Shown here in pieces: positions 7,345 through 14,036 of a DNA stretch of 21,113 nt. The DNA comes from a virus, in IMG/VR virus record IMGVR_UViG_3300028045_000128, positions 1-21,113 of that record. One strand, 5' to 3'. The position numbers and the translations under genes are program-made. The notes under the pieces were generated by a model. That model had not been told where the DNA came from. It did no database searches and saw only the letters and a program-made list of their open reading frames with translations. How positions within the stretch are numbered: position 1 is the stretch's first letter; every line of letters starts with the position of its first letter.

Positions 7345-7566
7345 ATGAAAAACGAAACAGGAAGAGGTTGGAATCCAACCACAAATTTACAAGAGGTGTT
7401 ATTGAATACCTACAAAACAAAGGCAACAATCGGTACTGCTTTAAAGTTATCTCAACCGACATTGAATGTTCTGCTCAAAGATGAGCGAAAGATTACATTT
7501 AGTCAGTTGGTGCAGATTAGCAACGATTCAAAAATAAGTTTAATCAAATTAATAAAACTACTATAA
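7345..7566 (+). CDS. Small protein with possible helix-turn-helix, 73 aa
   Basis: Residues about 26-62 (TKATIGTALKLSQPTLNVLLKDERKITFSQLVQISND) have the spacing of a Cro/CI-type DNA-binding helix-turn-helix: 'TIGTALKLSQPTLNVLL' would hold the two core helices. The rest is short. It may be a transcriptional regulator of the early region. There is no clear operator nearby. It begins 3 bases after the previous stop and its own stop overlaps the next ATG (TAATG). Confidence 0.55.
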   Translation: MKNETGRGWNPTTNLQEVLLNTYKTKATIGTALKLSQPTLNVLLKDERKITFSQLVQISNDSKISLIKLIKLL

Positions 7567-8045
7567 TGTTTAAAGAAGATAAATTTGAGTATTTAGTTGA
7601 GGAGGCTGCTAAGCTAAACAAGACTAACACAAAGAATATAATGAGTACAAACAGGCAACGATTTATTGTCGAAGCTCGAAATATGATTTATGCATTCCTT
7701 TCTGAAAATCATTGGGGGTGTACAAAGATAGGGAGAGCATTTGGTAAGAACCATGCATCGGTAATTCATGGGTGCAGGAATCATGAAAACGATTATAAAA
7801 CTCTACACTACTATCGAAAGACTTATGACAAGCTGATTCTTATCATGGCTGAAAATACCGATATGAATGAGGTTGTAAAGTTACGAGCAAAGCAAAGAGC
7901 AAAGGACGAGCTCGAAAACTTGCAAAATGAGAATGCCAGACTTAAGGAGAAGATTTACGATTTAAAAGAAAAGACTAAAAAAGTATTACAGTCACACAAT
8001 CACACAAATACGTTAACCCAAAAATTACATATATTATGCAGCTAA
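7566..8045 (+). CDS. DnaA domain IV-like DNA-binding protein with coiled-coil tail, 159 aa
   Basis: Residues about 34-92 resemble domain IV of the bacterial initiator DnaA: IVEARNMIYAFLSENHWGCTKIGRAFGKNHASVIHGCRNH. The stretch KNHASVIHGC (61-70) matches the DnaA signature RDHSTVLHAC that contacts the DnaA box. There is no AAA+ ATPase domain, so only the DNA-binding module is present. Residues about 103-143 are a charged coiled coil (DELENLQNENARLKEKIYDLK). It may bind DnaA boxes in the host or phage origin, either to recruit or to block host DnaA. It overlaps the upstream gene (TAATG) and overlaps the SSB-like gene by 10 bases. Confidence 0.75.
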   Translation: MFKEDKFEYLVEEAAKLNKTNTKNIMSTNRQRFIVEARNMIYAFLSENHWGCTKIGRAFGKNHASVIHGCRNHENDYKTLHYYRKTYDKLILIMAENTDMNEVVKLRAKQRAKDELENLQNENARLKEKIYDLKEKTKKVLQSHNHTNTLTQKLHILCS

Positions 8046-8353
8046 AAGGAACAATCCTAAAAATCAAAGATGTACAAGTTATATCTGACAAATTCAAGAA
8101 GCAAGAGGTTATCTTGAAACAAGCCGATACAGAGTATGACGCAGACATTCCGATAGAGTTTATGCAGGACAAAGGAATAGCTCTTGTAAATGGCTTAAAA
8201 GTAGGTCAGAACTATGAGATTAGTATCAACATAAGTGGTAGAGAATGGAAAGACAGACATTTTGTGAGTTTAAAAGCTTGGAAAGTTGAAAAGTTAGAGG
8301 GTTTCGAGTCTGAACAACCAACATCTTCAGCAGATGATTCAATGCCATTTTAA
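8036..8353 (+). CDS. DUF3127-type single-stranded DNA-binding protein, 105 aa
   Basis: The sequence follows the OB-fold family DUF3127 known from Bacteroidota: LKGTILKIKDVQVISDKFKKQEVIL, then KVGQNYEISINISGREW, then FVSLKAWKVEKLEG. It ends with the acidic tip DDSMPF, like the DDDIPF tail by which bacterial SSB binds partner proteins. It most likely coats single-stranded DNA during phage replication and recombination, in the cytoplasm. It is the last gene before a strong terminator and directly precedes the initiator gene. The ATG at 8036 is 10 bases inside the end of the DnaA-IV-like gene. Confidence 0.82.
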   Translation: MQLKGTILKIKDVQVISDKFKKQEVILKQADTEYDADIPIEFMQDKGIALVNGLKVGQNYEISINISGREWKDRHFVSLKAWKVEKLEGFESEQPTSSADDSMPF

Positions 8354-8403: not shown

Positions 8404-9054
8404 ATGGAACAACCAAATTATTACTCAATATTGACTGCATCGGTTAGGTATGACAAAGACTTAACACCGAATGCCAAGCTCCTGTACTCAGAGATTACTG
8501 CATTATCTAACAAGAAAGGTAAATGTTGGGCAAGCAATGGATACTTTGCAGGTCTTTACAATGTATCAAATACATCTATATCTAAATGGATAAAGCAATT
8601 AGCTGATAAAAAGTACATTCATGTGCAGATGCTTTACATTTCTGGAACTAAGCAGATTGATAAGCGAATTATATCAGTTACCCCTATTAAAGAAAAGTTA
8701 AATACCCCTATAAGAAAAGTTAAGGGGGGTATTGAAGAAATATTGCATACCCCTATTAAAGATAAGTTAAAGGATAATACTACAAGTATTAATACTACAA
8801 GTAATAATAGAGATGGTAAACCATCTTCTCTTACAATCGTTGAAGATTATTTTAGATTAAAAAACTTTGATTTAAGCGAGGCAATTAATTTCTTTGAGTA
8901 TTACGAAAGCAATGGTTGGAAAGTGGGCAGGAACGCAATGAAAAAGTGGAAGCTTGCAGCAAATAGATGGATAAGGAATGCCAAGCCAAAGAAAAAAGGA
9001 TTGTCAGAAGAATACTTTGGAGATTTGATGTCAAATAAAAATTTATTAGATTAG
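8404..9054 (+). CDS. Phage replication initiator protein, winged-helix N-terminus, 216 aa
   Basis: The N-terminal region YYSILTASVRYDKDLTPNAKLLYSEITALSNKKGKCWASNGYFAGLYNVSNTSISKWIKQLADKKYIHV (residues 6-75) is the helix-turn-helix domain (HTH_36 type) found at the start of many phage replication initiators. Residues about 92-125 are a low-complexity linker with repeats TPIKEKL, TPIRKV and TPIKDKL, encoded by DNA iterons. The C-terminal region has GWKVGRNAMKKWKLAANRWIRN, as in DnaD/phage initiator C-terminal domains. It probably binds the repeats within its own gene and opens the origin, as lambda O does. The start is 13 bases after the promoter; the next gene follows in 4 bases. Confidence 0.85.
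   Translation: MEQPNYYSILTASVRYDKDLTPNAKLLYSEITALSNKKGKCWASNGYFAGLYNVSNTSISKWIKQLADKKYIHVQMLYISGTKQIDKRIISVTPIKEKLNTPIRKVKGGIEEILHTPIKDKLKDNTTSINTTSNNRDGKPSSLTIVEDYFRLKNFDLSEAINFFEYYESNGWKVGRNAMKKWKLAANRWIRNAKPKKKGLSEEYFGDLMSNKNLLD
8679..8770 (+). repeat. Iteron array inside the initiator gene, candidate replication origin
   Basis: Three direct copies of a 21-23 base unit beginning TACCCCTAT and ending AAAAGTTAA or ATAAGTTAA lie at 8679-8701, 8703-8723 and 8748-8770. The second copy lacks two bases. An inverted core GGGGTATT (8726-8733) sits between copies two and three. The four C4/G4 cores start 24, 21 and 24 bases apart. Because copy two is shifted by two bases, the same DNA word is read in a different frame, which points to conservation as DNA rather than as protein. 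Placement within the initiator gene parallels the lambda O origin. Confidence 0.75.
8775..8803 (+). repeat. AT-rich tandem repeat beside the iterons, candidate unwinding element
   Basis: TAATACTACAAGTA occurs at 8775-8788 and again at 8790-8803 with one base between. The stretch to about 8808 is mostly A and T. It directly follows the third iteron, where an origin's easily melted region would be expected. A perfect inverted repeat AGATGG/CCATCT (8811-8826) comes next. Confidence 0.55.
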
Positions 9055-9058
9055 CAGA

Positions 9059-9754
9059 ATGGAAATAGGAAAACAACCGACAGAACAATTACTTGACTTT
9101 TGCTTTAAGACTTTAAACAAAGCATTGTTTGAGATGAGTCAGAACAAAGCAGAATCAGACAGGAAAGTATTAGCAAACATTTTAATGAACGATCTAAACG
9201 ATAAGTTTTTTAGATTGACTGCTGCTGATGTTACTCAGGCATTTCACAAAGGAGTGAGAGAGGGAGAGCAGCTTGCAATCAATCCAAGAACATGGTTTAA
9301 TTGGCTAAACAAACAAAAGATGAAAACTAACAAATTAAGGATTGAGCAGTCGCAAGATGGCGAACGATTACTAATAGAATCGAATGCTCAGAACATAGAC
9401 AAAGAAGAGGTGCTAAAGGAGTTCCTGGAGCTTTGTGTTATAGAACCATTTGAGGATCATTGCAAAGGGGAGGATATTACCTTTCAAGGAATTAACCAAG
9501 CATTCCAATGGCTAGAGCTTAATAACTTTATTGTGCTAACAACAAAGGACAAGGAACAAATGTGGGAACAGGTGCAGGAAGAGATAGTTGCAAGGAAAAA
9601 GTTTGTTCACAATAAACGCAAACAATTCCATCCTGTAATAATGTGCAGAGAGAAAGCCTTGAGGATGAATTTTGGTAAGTGGAAGAAAGCAAAGAAAAAC
9701 CTAAGAAAAGAAATTTATAAAATACTAGACAATAGGCAAGACTATGAAAAATAG
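9059..9754 (+). CDS. Replication-region protein of unknown function, 231 aa
   Basis: It starts 4 bases after the initiator stop. Residues about 30-95 contain KVLANILMNDLNDKFFRLTAADVTQAFHKGVREG and NPRTWFNWLNKQKM, a segment I remember from proteins that follow initiator or helicase genes in Bacteroidota phages. The C-terminal part is basic and helical (KKFVHNKRKQFHPV, KWKKAKKNLRKEIYKIL). No P-loop is visible, so it is not a DnaC-like ATPase, although a helicase-recruiting role is possible from position. The last ten residues (ILDN then RQDYEK) look altered: they lie at the 14-base repeat that flanks the next gene, and without that gene the protein would end ILDNG. Confidence 0.7.
   Translation: MEIGKQPTEQLLDFCFKTLNKALFEMSQNKAESDRKVLANILMNDLNDKFFRLTAADVTQAFHKGVREGEQLAINPRTWFNWLNKQKMKTNKLRIEQSQDGERLLIESNAQNIDKEEVLKEFLELCVIEPFEDHCKGEDITFQGINQAFQWLELNNFIVLTTKDKEQMWEQVQEEIVARKKFVHNKRKQFHPVIMCREKALRMNFGKWKKAKKNLRKEIYKILDNRQDYEK
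9720..9733 (+). repeat. Left copy of 14-base direct repeat flanking the methyltransferase gene
   Basis: AAATACTAGACAAT here is repeated exactly at 10173-10186, on the other side of the methyltransferase gene. It encodes KILDN in the upstream protein. Confidence 0.7.
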
Positions 9755-10169
9755 AAATTTAGAACACAAAGACGATTGGGCAACACCTGATTATGTGTTA
9801 AATCCTTTATACGAAGAGTTTGGTGATTTATTTGATCCTTGCCCATTTCAACATAACATAAGTGATTGGGATGGTTTAGATATAGAGTGGGCTAATAGAA
9901 ACTTTATAAACCCTCCTTATAGCAGAGTGCTTAAAGATAATTTTGTTTTAAAAGCCATAAAAGAAAGCAAAAAAGGTAAATTGTGTGTAATGTTATTACC
10001 TGTTAGTACATCTACTAAATTATTTCACGAACATATTTTACCTAACAAAACAGAAATAAGATTTTTAAAAGGTAGAGTAAAGTTTAAAGGCTATAATACA
10101 AAAGGTGAATTCGTAACAAGTAAGTGTGGTATGCACGATTCTATGTTAGTTATATTTGATGGGAGATAA
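9744..10169 (+). CDS. Phage N6-adenine DNA methyltransferase, Dam-like, 141 aa
   Basis: The protein follows the phage Dam family (PF05869 type): DDWATPDYVLNPLYEEFGDLFDPCP near the N-terminus, catalytic NPPYS at 56-60, LLPVSTSTKLFH in the middle and IRFLKGRVKF near the end. NPPY is the catalytic motif of adenine-N6 methyltransferases. It probably methylates phage DNA to avoid host restriction; the target site cannot be read from sequence. Length is typical to slightly short for the family. Most of the gene is AT-richer than its flanks (about 23-33 percent G+C in lines after 9900, against 35-38 percent at 9300-9420), and it lies between 14-base direct repeats, so it looks inserted. It overlaps the upstream gene by 11 bases. 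Confidence 0.85.
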   Translation: MKNRNLEHKDDWATPDYVLNPLYEEFGDLFDPCPFQHNISDWDGLDIEWANRNFINPPYSRVLKDNFVLKAIKESKKGKLCVMLLPVSTSTKLFHEHILPNKTEIRFLKGRVKFKGYNTKGEFVTSKCGMHDSMLVIFDGR

Positions 10170-10186: not shown

Positions 10187-10361
10187 GGATAAGAGGATAA
10201 GTAAATTACTAAAGCAGAACGCAGCTAATGTTGCAAACTCTGGCACAGGAAGCAAAAAAGATATTGGAGGAGAGAAAGAAGTTGCAAAGGCTTGGAAAGA
10301 GATTCAAAAGGATATTAAGAAAATAGACAAAGAGTTTTACGAAATAATTAAAGAGCGATGA
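10185..10361 (+). CDS. Hypothetical small basic helical protein, 58 aa
   Basis: The gene begins MDKRISKLLKQNAANVANSG and continues with lysine-rich helix (EVAKAWKEIQKDIKKIDKEFYEIIKER). It is soluble and has no recognised domain. The start codon overlaps the right 14-base repeat; the stop overlaps the next ATG (ATGA). If the methyltransferase insertion is removed in thought, this gene would overlap the end of the 231-residue protein by a few bases, which is the usual spacing in this genome. Function unknown. Confidence 0.6.
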   Translation: MDKRISKLLKQNAANVANSGTGSKKDIGGEKEVAKAWKEIQKDIKKIDKEFYEIIKER

Positions 10362-10972
10362 CAATTACAAACGAAGATAACATGCAGTTAATGGCTAGGT
10401 ACGAGGACAATCATTTCGATTTAGCTATTGTAGACCCTCCTTATGGAATAAACATAAATGTTTCTATGGGTAGGAGAAAAGGAGATAAAAAAAGTGATTA
10501 CCATAAATTTGCTGGTAATGATTCTGAAATACCAAGTAAACAATATTTTACAGAATTGTTTAGAATATCTAAAAACCAAATTATTTGGGGTGGTAATTAC
10601 ATGACTGAGCATTTAAAACCAACTTCCTGTTGGTTGCTTTGGGATAAAGGATTTTCTGAAGATGTAACTTTTGCACAATTTGAAATGGCTTGGTCTTCAT
10701 TTAATTCAAGTGCTAAAAAATACGATAAGCACCCAAATCAATTAAATAGAATACACCCAACACAAAAACCTATTGCCTTATATGAGTGGATTTTAATGCG
10801 ATACGCAAAAGAGGGCGACAAAATACTAGACACTCATTTAGGTAGTGGCTCAATAGCTATTGCCTGCCACAATTTAGGATATGATTTAACTGCCTGTGAA
10901 CTTGACAAAGAGTATTACGAAGCGAGTTTAAAAAGAATTAATCAGCATAAAGCACAATTAAGGATAATATGA
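10358..10972 (+). CDS. Beta-class DNA methyltransferase (probably N6-adenine), 204 aa
   Basis: The catalytic motif DPPYG (26-30) comes first, and the AdoMet-binding motif I DTHLGSGSIAIA (158-169) near the end, preceded by HPTQKP (133-138). This order (IV, target region, X-I) is that of beta-class amino-methyltransferases. DPPY favours adenine-N6, though cytosine-N4 cannot be excluded. Like the preceding enzyme it probably shields phage DNA from restriction. Much of the gene, at about 10440-10620, is low in G+C (25-30 percent). The start is in an ATGA overlap. At 10820-10832, motif I DNA repeats 12 bases of the nearby flanking repeat, perhaps by chance. Confidence 0.88.
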   Translation: MTITNEDNMQLMARYEDNHFDLAIVDPPYGININVSMGRRKGDKKSDYHKFAGNDSEIPSKQYFTELFRISKNQIIWGGNYMTEHLKPTSCWLLWDKGFSEDVTFAQFEMAWSSFNSSAKKYDKHPNQLNRIHPTQKPIALYEWILMRYAKEGDKILDTHLGSGSIAIACHNLGYDLTACELDKEYYEASLKRINQHKAQLRII

Positions 10973-12580: not shown

Positions 12581-12917
12581 ACTTGCCATTTGTAATAAGT
12601 GCAAGCATTTTAGAAAGTCAGTAAACCAATGCAAAAAATGTGGTTGCTTTATGCAGATAAAAGCAAGGATAGCATTCACTAAATGCCCAATTGATAAATG
12701 GGACAGAGAAACTGATATAACTAAAGACCAACTCTCAATACTTAAAAGAGTGTTTGATGAGATTGAGGGCGATAAAGTAACGCATGACCAAAACAGGAAC
12801 TTGACCAACATATACAATGACATCTTTGGAATGAATAAAAAAGTAACAGGTTGTGCAAGTTGTGTAAAGCAAACAGTAAACGATTTAAAAGAAGTATATG
12901 AAGCCTATAAAGATTAA
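12543..12917 (+). CDS. Zinc-finger protein with second C-terminal CxxC, 124 aa
   Basis: The N-terminal half has CNKC (17-20), CKKCGC (30-35) and CP at 48 in KCPIDKW, a clear zinc-ribbon or knuckle-type site. The C-terminal part has a separate CASC motif followed by a helix (VKQTVNDLKEVYEAYKD). Both parts occur in phage proteins of Bacteroidota as I remember, sometimes separately. It may bind nucleic acid or protein; no specific role can be given. It overlaps the sigma-like gene by 38 bases and the ParB-like gene by 20. Confidence 0.7.
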   Translation: MKLRASTKNLNDRLAICNKCKHFRKSVNQCKKCGCFMQIKARIAFTKCPIDKWDRETDITKDQLSILKRVFDEIEGDKVTHDQNRNLTNIYNDIFGMNKKVTGCASCVKQTVNDLKEVYEAYKD

Positions 12918-13437
12918 GCAAAGAAAAATCTCAGAGTTAAATCCTGCTGAGTACAACCCAAGACAATTAACAGATAAGCAATACAAGCAGCTTAAAAAGT
13001 CGTTGAAGACATTTGGTTGCGTTGAGCCTGTTGTGATTAATTGTAACCCTATGCGAAAGGATATAATTGTAGGAGGGCATCAAAGGTGTAAAGTATGGGC
13101 AGATTTGGGTAACGATACTATTCCAACCGTTGAGGTTGAGCTTGATGAAGCTGCTGAGATGGAGCTAAATGTTAGGCTAAATAAAAATACAGGGGAGTTT
13201 GACTTTGATATGTTAGCTAACTATTTTGATATGGATGCTTTGAAAGATTGGGGTTTTCAACCTTATGAGTTTGGAGAAACTTTTGATGATATTATTGAAG
13301 ATTTAGATGGAGAAGAAAAAGAAAACAAGCCATCAATTAAAATAACATTTACAACTTATAAAGATTTAGAAAATGCAGAGATTGAAATACAAGAATTAAT
13401 ATCTAAATATAAAGATTCATTTTATTCAGTTTCATAA
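12898..13437 (+). CDS. ParB/Srx-like N-terminal domain protein linked to mom, 179 aa
   Basis: Residues about 7-95 form a ParB N-terminal (ParBc/sulfiredoxin-like) domain: ISELNPAEYNPRQLTDKQYKQLKKSL, then the motif IIVGGHQRCKVWADLG (GGHQR at 59-63), then ELDEAAEMELNVRLNKNTGEFD. In phages such domains often neighbour DNA modification enzymes. The C-terminal part (NKPSIKITFTTYKDLENAEIEIQELI) is a separate small domain. Base composition falls from about 35-43 percent G+C in the first part to about 25 percent near 13320, so the 3' end of the gene and the following mom gene seem to come from a different source. It overlaps mom as TAATG, so the two are translationally coupled. Confidence 0.8.
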   Translation: MKPIKIKQRKISELNPAEYNPRQLTDKQYKQLKKSLKTFGCVEPVVINCNPMRKDIIVGGHQRCKVWADLGNDTIPTVEVELDEAAEMELNVRLNKNTGEFDFDMLANYFDMDALKDWGFQPYEFGETFDDIIEDLDGEEKENKPSIKITFTTYKDLENAEIEIQELISKYKDSFYSVS

Positions 13438-14036
13438 TGAGATTAGAAATAGCATCACATAAAGCAATAAAATATGCTTGTCTTAATTTTCATTATGCAA
13501 AAGTTTTACCTGTTACAAGTATAGCATTTAATGTATATAACAATAAAAATGAATGGTGTGGTTGTATATTATTTGGAGGAGGTGCAAGTTATATGTTAGG
13601 CAATTCTTATGGTTTAGTTTCAGGTCAGTTTTTAGAACTTACAAGAATGGCATTAAATGGTAAGCAAGAATCTACAAGTAAAGCTATGGCGATAGCTATA
13701 AAATTGATTAAGAAGAAAAAGCCTTTAGTTAAATTATTATTTAGTTATGCAGATAAAGGACAAAACCATTTAGGTATTATATATCAAGCAACGAATTGGT
13801 TATTTATTGATGCAACCAAAAGTAGTGGTATAGAATATTATTATAAAGGTAAATGGACACACGATAAAGGGAGATATAATTGGGATATAGATTTTAAAAA
13901 GTTAGAAAAAAGAAAAAAAGCAGGAAAGTATAAATACGTATATCCATTAACTAAAGAATTAAAAACAATGTGTAAAAACTTAAAAAAACCATACCCAAAA
14001 AATAACCCTCCAGGAGAGGAGGGCTTTGAGCGATGA
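13437..14036 (+). CDS. Mom-like DNA adenine modification enzyme, 199 aa
   Basis: The sequence matches the Mom family of GNAT-like DNA modification proteins: GCILFGGGASYML (42-54), LELTRMAL (66-73), ESTSKAMAIAIKLIKK (78-93) and SYADKGQNHLGIIYQATNW (103-121). In phage Mu, Mom converts adenine in DNA to an acetamido-type derivative that blocks many restriction enzymes; here the same role is inferred. The gene is very AT-rich (lines near 23-25 percent G+C against 35-43 percent in flanking genes), which suggests recent transfer. The C-terminus is lysine-rich (KKLEKRKKAGKYKYVYP). Its last seven bases overlap the acceptor end of a minus-strand tRNA gene. Confidence 0.85.
   Translation: MRLEIASHKAIKYACLNFHYAKVLPVTSIAFNVYNNKNEWCGCILFGGGASYMLGNSYGLVSGQFLELTRMALNGKQESTSKAMAIAIKLIKKKKPLVKLLFSYADKGQNHLGIIYQATNWLFIDATKSSGIEYYYKGKWTHDKGRYNWDIDFKKLEKRKKAGKYKYVYPLTKELKTMCKNLKKPYPKNNPPGEEGFER
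13997..14023 (-). terminator. Minus-strand intrinsic terminator for the tRNA unit
   Basis: On the minus strand CCCTCC (14023-14018) pairs with GGAGGG (14011-14006) around TCTCCT, followed by TTATTTTTT (14005-13997). It is 6 bases beyond the tRNA discriminator and lies within the coding end of mom. On the + strand no T run follows the hairpin, so it should act only in the minus direction. Confidence 0.7.

Follow-up and report, generated by a model that had tools for sequence, protein, structure and literature searches.

The current analysis provides evidence that an array of repeats in the middle of a viral initiator gene, at 8681-8809 of the 21,113-nucleotide stretch of DNA analyzed here (hereafter the window, from the IMG/VR virus record IMGVR_UViG_3300028045_000128), is very likely an intragenic origin of replication that is recognized by the product of the same gene. 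An initial annotation, made from the letters alone, had proposed a candidate origin inside the initiator gene, and this proposal gains support from conservation at the DNA level as well as from covariation between the recognition helix of the initiator and the half-sites of its repeats, both of which are drawn from sequence comparison. Since intragenic origins are already established for lambda O, RepA_N plasmids, phage 80alpha, and pPR9, the point of interest is a recognition code that extends across the family. We consider it probable that phage HTH_36 initiators from several phyla constitute one system with self-labeled sites, in which a code pairing helix positions 4, 7, and 8 with site bases 3, 4-5, and 1, respectively, sets origin specificity, and in which helix and iterons are mobile as a single cassette. 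A search of open-access literature retrieved no earlier account of a family-wide, cross-phylum helix/iteron code with cassette exchange.

The initiator gene (8404..9054, + strand) encodes 216 amino acids, which are arranged as a winged-helix N domain, a predicted disordered linker, and a C domain according to PF13730, PHROG matches, and a structure model. The match to PF13730 (HTH_36) reaches 51.8 bits (E 7e-14; gathering cut-off 25), and PHROG matches include phrog_19658, "replication initiation protein" (6e-32), and phrog_270 (3e-18). The gene sits in a replication gene group, its neighbor being a DUF3127/single-strand DNA binding protein (8036..8353, + strand; PF11325, 9e-22; PHROG 4932, 3e-22). 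The alignment-based AlphaFold2 model is mostly confident for the N domain to residue 92 and for helices 143-193, and the recognition helix comprises residues 56-68 (8569..8607, + strand), with T57, S60, and K61 occupying code positions 4, 7, and 8 according to the model and the covariation described below. Residues 96-136, which are encoded by the iterons and an adjacent AT block, are predicted to be disordered. The C-terminal helical domain spans residues 137-193 (8812..8982, + strand) as judged from the model and from PHROGs, with PHROGs 15768 and 28809 matching residues 119-196, and it presumably contacts the helicase or its loader. A single-sequence AlphaFold2 model (pLDDT 39) was set aside. 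When compared with the RepA_N N domains 4pql, 4pt7, 4pta, and 5kbj, the alignment-based model yields Z scores of 8.3-9.6 over 82-88 residues; because the top rows also hold generic winged helices, the fold alone leaves the family undecided. No match to PF06970 (RepA_N) was found in the initiator up to E 0.1, and comparing the family profile with PDB sequences returned nothing significant (best E 0.083). Fourteen plasmid records were matched at E<=1e-5, and among those examined, the one with annotation exhibits a phage-like gene order.

The 21.1 kb window contains exactly three copies of TACCCCTAT, at 8679, 8703, and 8748, all of them in the initiator gene, and a single GGGGTAT, at 8726, between copies two and three. 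The repeats are therefore located where the initial annotation had placed them, and none of 1000 dinucleotide shuffles reached the observed repeat score. Positions 8679-8702 and 8748-8771 are 96% identical across 24 nt, and Tandem Repeats Finder detects the array with a period of 24. The sequence also bears out that two bases are missing from copy two, due to which the common word AAGAAAAGTTAA is read there in a different frame. Since relatives show a 5-base half-site, an A-rich spacer, an inverted half-site, and a C/G-tract joint, the repeat unit is best defined as an imperfect dyad, TTAAA-GAAAA-GTTAA (half-site, A-tract, inverted half-site), and not as a simple direct repeat. The three direct copies described initially are thus present, but their unit is a dyad occurring four times, and the reported "inverted core" GGGGGGTA reads as an inter-dyad joint, the joints of the family being of the CCCC or GGGG type.

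The array, whose features carry no strand, begins with a CCCC tract (8681..8684) preceding dyad 1 (TTAAAGAAAAGTTAA, 8687..8701), which the joint ATACCCC (8702..8708) connects to dyad 2 (TATAAGAAAAGTTAA, 8709..8723) in another reading frame. The joint GGGGGGTA (8724..8731) leads to a degenerate dyad 3 (TTGAAGAAATATTGC, 8732..8746), and the joint ATACCCCTA (8747..8755) leads to dyad 4 (TTAAAGATAAGTTAA, 8756..8770). Dyads 1, 2, and 4 as well as GGGGGGTA were assigned with the aid of family dyads and joints, the CCCC tract and the other two joints from the sequence. Successive dyads are 22, 23, and 24 bp apart, with CCCC or GGGG connecting neighbors. Dyad 3 is not significant by itself, as it has 4 mismatches to the consensus, a level at which the two strands of the window yield 28 matches; its assignment is based upon how it fits the 22-24 bp period and upon relatives keeping TTGAAGAAATGTTGC at the same place. 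No further dyad of this kind is present anywhere else in the window at <=2 mismatches. Among family members, dyad spacing is mostly 22-24 bp, whereas the joints vary, with TACCCCTA being the commonest, followed by GACCCTA, GAGGGTA, GGGGGGTA, and similar forms. Even spacers prevail, and for spacer 6 there are 230 perfect 5-bp dyads (a count that takes in dyads centered on the C tract) versus 34 expected from synonymous shuffles.

Several observations indicate that these repeats are real and act at the DNA level. When the codons of the window gene were redrawn from the phage's own usage with the protein fixed, none of 1000 synonymous shuffles attained the summed repeat score and only 2 of 1000 had a single best repeat as high. 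Among eight near relatives (including the window, all with the same recognition helix), synonymous variation affects 2 of 24 conserved codons in the iterons and 0 of 9 in the AT block, compared to 66 of 134 elsewhere (p 1.3e-6). In a broader family set of 174 clusters of relatives at 85% identity, 141 of 170 linkers (83%) contain an excess of DNA repeats relative to protein-preserving shuffles at p<=0.01, whereas the same is true of only 4 of 174 N-domain and 2 of 160 C-terminal end control segments (1-2%). The approximately 17% of linkers missing this threshold may be partly explained by single or degenerate dyads. Furthermore, dyads are found in more than one reading frame within one linker in 77 of 136 cases, which argues that the peptide is not the target of selection. 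A function at the DNA level had been claimed initially, and a comparison of homologous genes had been set beforehand as its check; the shuffles and the conservation among homologues both agree with the claim.

On its 3' side, the element extends through a tandem AT repeat with a 15-bp unit, ending at 8809. This AT block (8774-8809, strandless, tandem AATACTACAAGTATT) ranks among the least stable 0.26% of the window's duplex and is a probable unwinding element in view of its stability and codon constraint; in relatives it reads near GATAATAATACAAGTATTAATAATAC. When viral contigs were searched for the DNA pattern of the AT block while ignoring the protein, 79 of 80 retrieved loci fell within winged-helix initiator genes, always in the same frame, the one exception lying in a contig-edge fragment that resembles such a gene. 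As protein conservation alone could produce this result, codon choice was examined in 126 genes found by protein. Within the AT block, Asn is encoded by AAT in 97% of cases (69% elsewhere in the genes), Ser by AGT or TCT in 98% (46% elsewhere), and Ile by ATT in 83% (43% elsewhere). When duplex stability is ranked along each gene, the block is among the lowest 5% in 110 of 126 genes, and in 21 of 22 genes above 40% GC. In 102 of approximately 149 cases, it lies 12 bp from the center of the last dyad.

The strongest evidence comes from the correspondence between helix and half-site. Half-sites, which were called by a rule demanding an A-rich center and in a sample of relatives biased toward those near the queries, fall into classes by helix: E4+R8 helices are paired with TTGAC, V/I4+R8 with TTAAC, V/I4+K8 with TTAAA, and T4+K8, the class of the window, with TTGAA or TTTAA. 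Helices with R4 have G at site base 3 in 17 of 17 cases, while the K4, N4, and S4 classes are too heterogeneous for any rule. Mutual information peaks between helix position 4 and site base 3 (1.06 bits, z 24); the next pairs are position 8/base 1 (z 18.6) and position 7/base 5 (z 16). In a phylogeny control using 76 disjoint nearest pairs, a simpler approach than modeling the full tree, Fisher tests yielded p 5e-7 for position 4 with base 3 and 3e-4 for position 8 with base 1. Likewise, half-sites predicted from a like helix in proteins <60% identical elsewhere were correct at 0.71 of their bases (0.83 where the helix matched well), compared to 0.51 when using the nearest protein outside the helix and 0.48 for a random choice (p 8e-13). 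The same helix is paired with the same site across Bacillota and Bacteroidota, as TTGAC is found with both an Enterococcus initiator (L342) and a Flavobacterium initiator (L374). The relatives also include an isolated phage, Cellulophaga phage phi39:1 (L043). Because recognition-helix residues covary with half-site bases, it is very probably the initiator's own winged helix that binds the dyads. Two other initiators, L144 and L165, encode SENIKGG peptide repeats with the AT block kept, and L144 exhibits a weak domain score (52 bits) and an unusual helix, SKGRCTQI, perhaps representing a separate specificity class. With protein and sites located in one gene, each sequenced relative provides a matched protein-DNA pair, and such pairs constitute a natural data set for the winged-helix recognition code. 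Origins and replicon incompatibility could also become readable straight from metagenomic phage sequence.

Helix and iterons also appear to travel together. The window and its relatives L011 and L012 share 90-100% identity in the first 150 nt of the gene and mostly 87-100% from the AT block on. In the segment from the recognition helix to the iterons (gene nt 181-360), identity is about 43-70%, and helix class and iterons switch together. A similar situation is evident in phage 77, a family member with TTGAC iterons, which shares 107 of 109 C-terminal residues (98%) with phage 80alpha gp20, whereas gp20 differs in its N domain and iterons. If the cassette moves as one unit, phages could switch replicon identity by recombination, which would offer an evolutionary route of escape from same-origin competition.

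Other explanations for the array have to be considered. Initiator-bound dyads could be an operator or copy-number brake on the initiator's own transcription or replication, with the true origin located elsewhere. Winged-helix proteins are often autoregulators, the dyads lie inside a transcribed gene, and the window is probably incomplete, all of which would be compatible with such a role. However, the array is located ~280 bp into the coding sequence, away from the promoter, and it contains the only dyads of this type (<=2 mismatches) in the window. An operator would also have no need of an AT block that is unstable, frozen in its codons, and set at a constant 12 bp, and functional origins are present in genes with a comparable architecture (PMC5703833, PMC5499656). 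We consequently regard an operator or brake as unlikely.

A still less probable scenario is that selection acts upon the linker peptide, with its TPIKEKLN repeats and DNNTSINNTS segment, and that the DNA repeats are a by-product. While the peptide does look repetitive and alike across phyla, it is predicted by the model to be disordered, and the inverted symmetry of both dyad arms would be meaningless to it; we rejected this explanation because the repeat excess persists when the peptide is kept and the codons are shuffled, the dyads occupy several frames, and the synonymous sites are frozen. Neutral tandem duplication through replication slippage, a known source of short tandem units from which the 15-bp AT repeat could have arisen, was judged to be just as improbable. 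It was rejected because half-sites follow the recognition helix in divergent proteins, spacing is kept mostly at 22-24 bp despite varying joints, and synonymous sites are frozen in the window's clade.

The most likely role of the repeats is that of a replication origin for the phage, and 8681-8809 is presumably the main one. We infer a sequence of dyad binding, strand opening, and helicase recruitment, in which a winged-helix N-domain dimer would occupy each dyad, placing one recognition helix on each half-site with the A-tract between them. Being about two helical turns apart, the dimers would be stacked along one face of the DNA. The AT block, 12 bp past the last dyad center in most relatives, would then open with the help of the stacked dimers, and the C domain would recruit the replicative helicase or its loader. 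Further architectural neighbors that support this mechanism include PLE RepA (PMC7145576) and the lambda and Stx O proteins (PMC7466680). A replicative helicase was not recognized among the window proteins scanned, so the phage either uses that of its host or encodes one outside of the fragment. GC skew, which had been suggested as a check, proved uninformative, as it is positive over the whole window with no switch at the array. DnaA boxes (1 mismatch) are absent between 7037 and 9603, and their matches in the window are no commoner than in a reversed control. As contigs of near relatives reach about 28.7-29.0 kb, the 21.1 kb record probably represents a fragment, and another origin could therefore lie outside of it.

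Among known systems, the RepA_N plasmids pSK41 and pTZ2162 have an origin located in the rep gene between the N and C domains, with an origin-encoded linker, and their winged-helix N domain, which has a DnaD-like fold, binds iterons consisting of inverted repeats that converge on a poly-A tract (PMC5703833, PMC7145576). The window gene resembles them in its probable intragenic origin, its inverted-repeat iterons around an A-tract, and its winged-helix N domain, but RepA_N proteins belong to PF06970 instead of PF13730 and are mostly found on plasmids rather than phages. Functional data for close architectures are supplied by pPR9 and phage 80alpha gp20. In pPR9, a PF13730 N domain is joined to the pSK41 C domain together with its own origin, and the arrangement replicates autonomously (PMC5703833); it shares PF13730 with the window initiator, and N domain and origin were replaced together, although pPR9 is a plasmid. 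In phage 80alpha, trans complementation of ORF20 is not possible, and ORF20 plus ORF21 suffice for replication (PMC5499656); the phage record annotates the origin inside the gp20 gene. There, an N domain, iterons, an NNT-rich AT block, and a C domain follow in the same order, with the origin embedded in the gene (PMC5499656), but the N domain is of another family (no significant domain match with the family profile) and the iterons are different, so the genetics can be transferred by architecture only. Lambda O was originally cited as the precedent, which is fair functionally, but the RepA_N plasmids are nearer in layout, iteron design, and fold. Lambda O likewise has four mid-gene iterons with inverted halves around an A-tract, in several frames and followed by an AT-rich stretch (PMC7466680); these iterons were taken from the record annotation, as our even-spacer A-tract dyad search missed their odd spacer. 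It differs in its half-site, in its Gram-negative host, and in having no match to the family profile (E 0.39 on lambda O itself); the lambda O-like PHROG matches of the window initiator are weak (2e-5 and 9e-5).

The surrounding genes include a few additional items. A small protein encoded at 7566-8045 (+) matches the DnaA C-terminal domain IV (Bac_DnaA_C, E 2e-9) without an AAA+ domain, and the proximity of a putative DnaA-box binder to an array without a DnaA box is curious. Directly 3' of the initiator, a 231-aa ORF (9059-9754, +) has no family match and is a candidate helicase loader by position. Farther downstream are methyltransferase genes at 9744-10169 (Dam) and 10358-10972 (N6_N4), as well as a stand-alone ParB N-terminal domain protein (12898-13437, +) that resembles the N-terminal portion of phage DNA methyltransferases (PHROG 498). 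A Mom family protein (13437-14036, +; PF25680, E 7e-32) points to possible base modification of the phage DNA.
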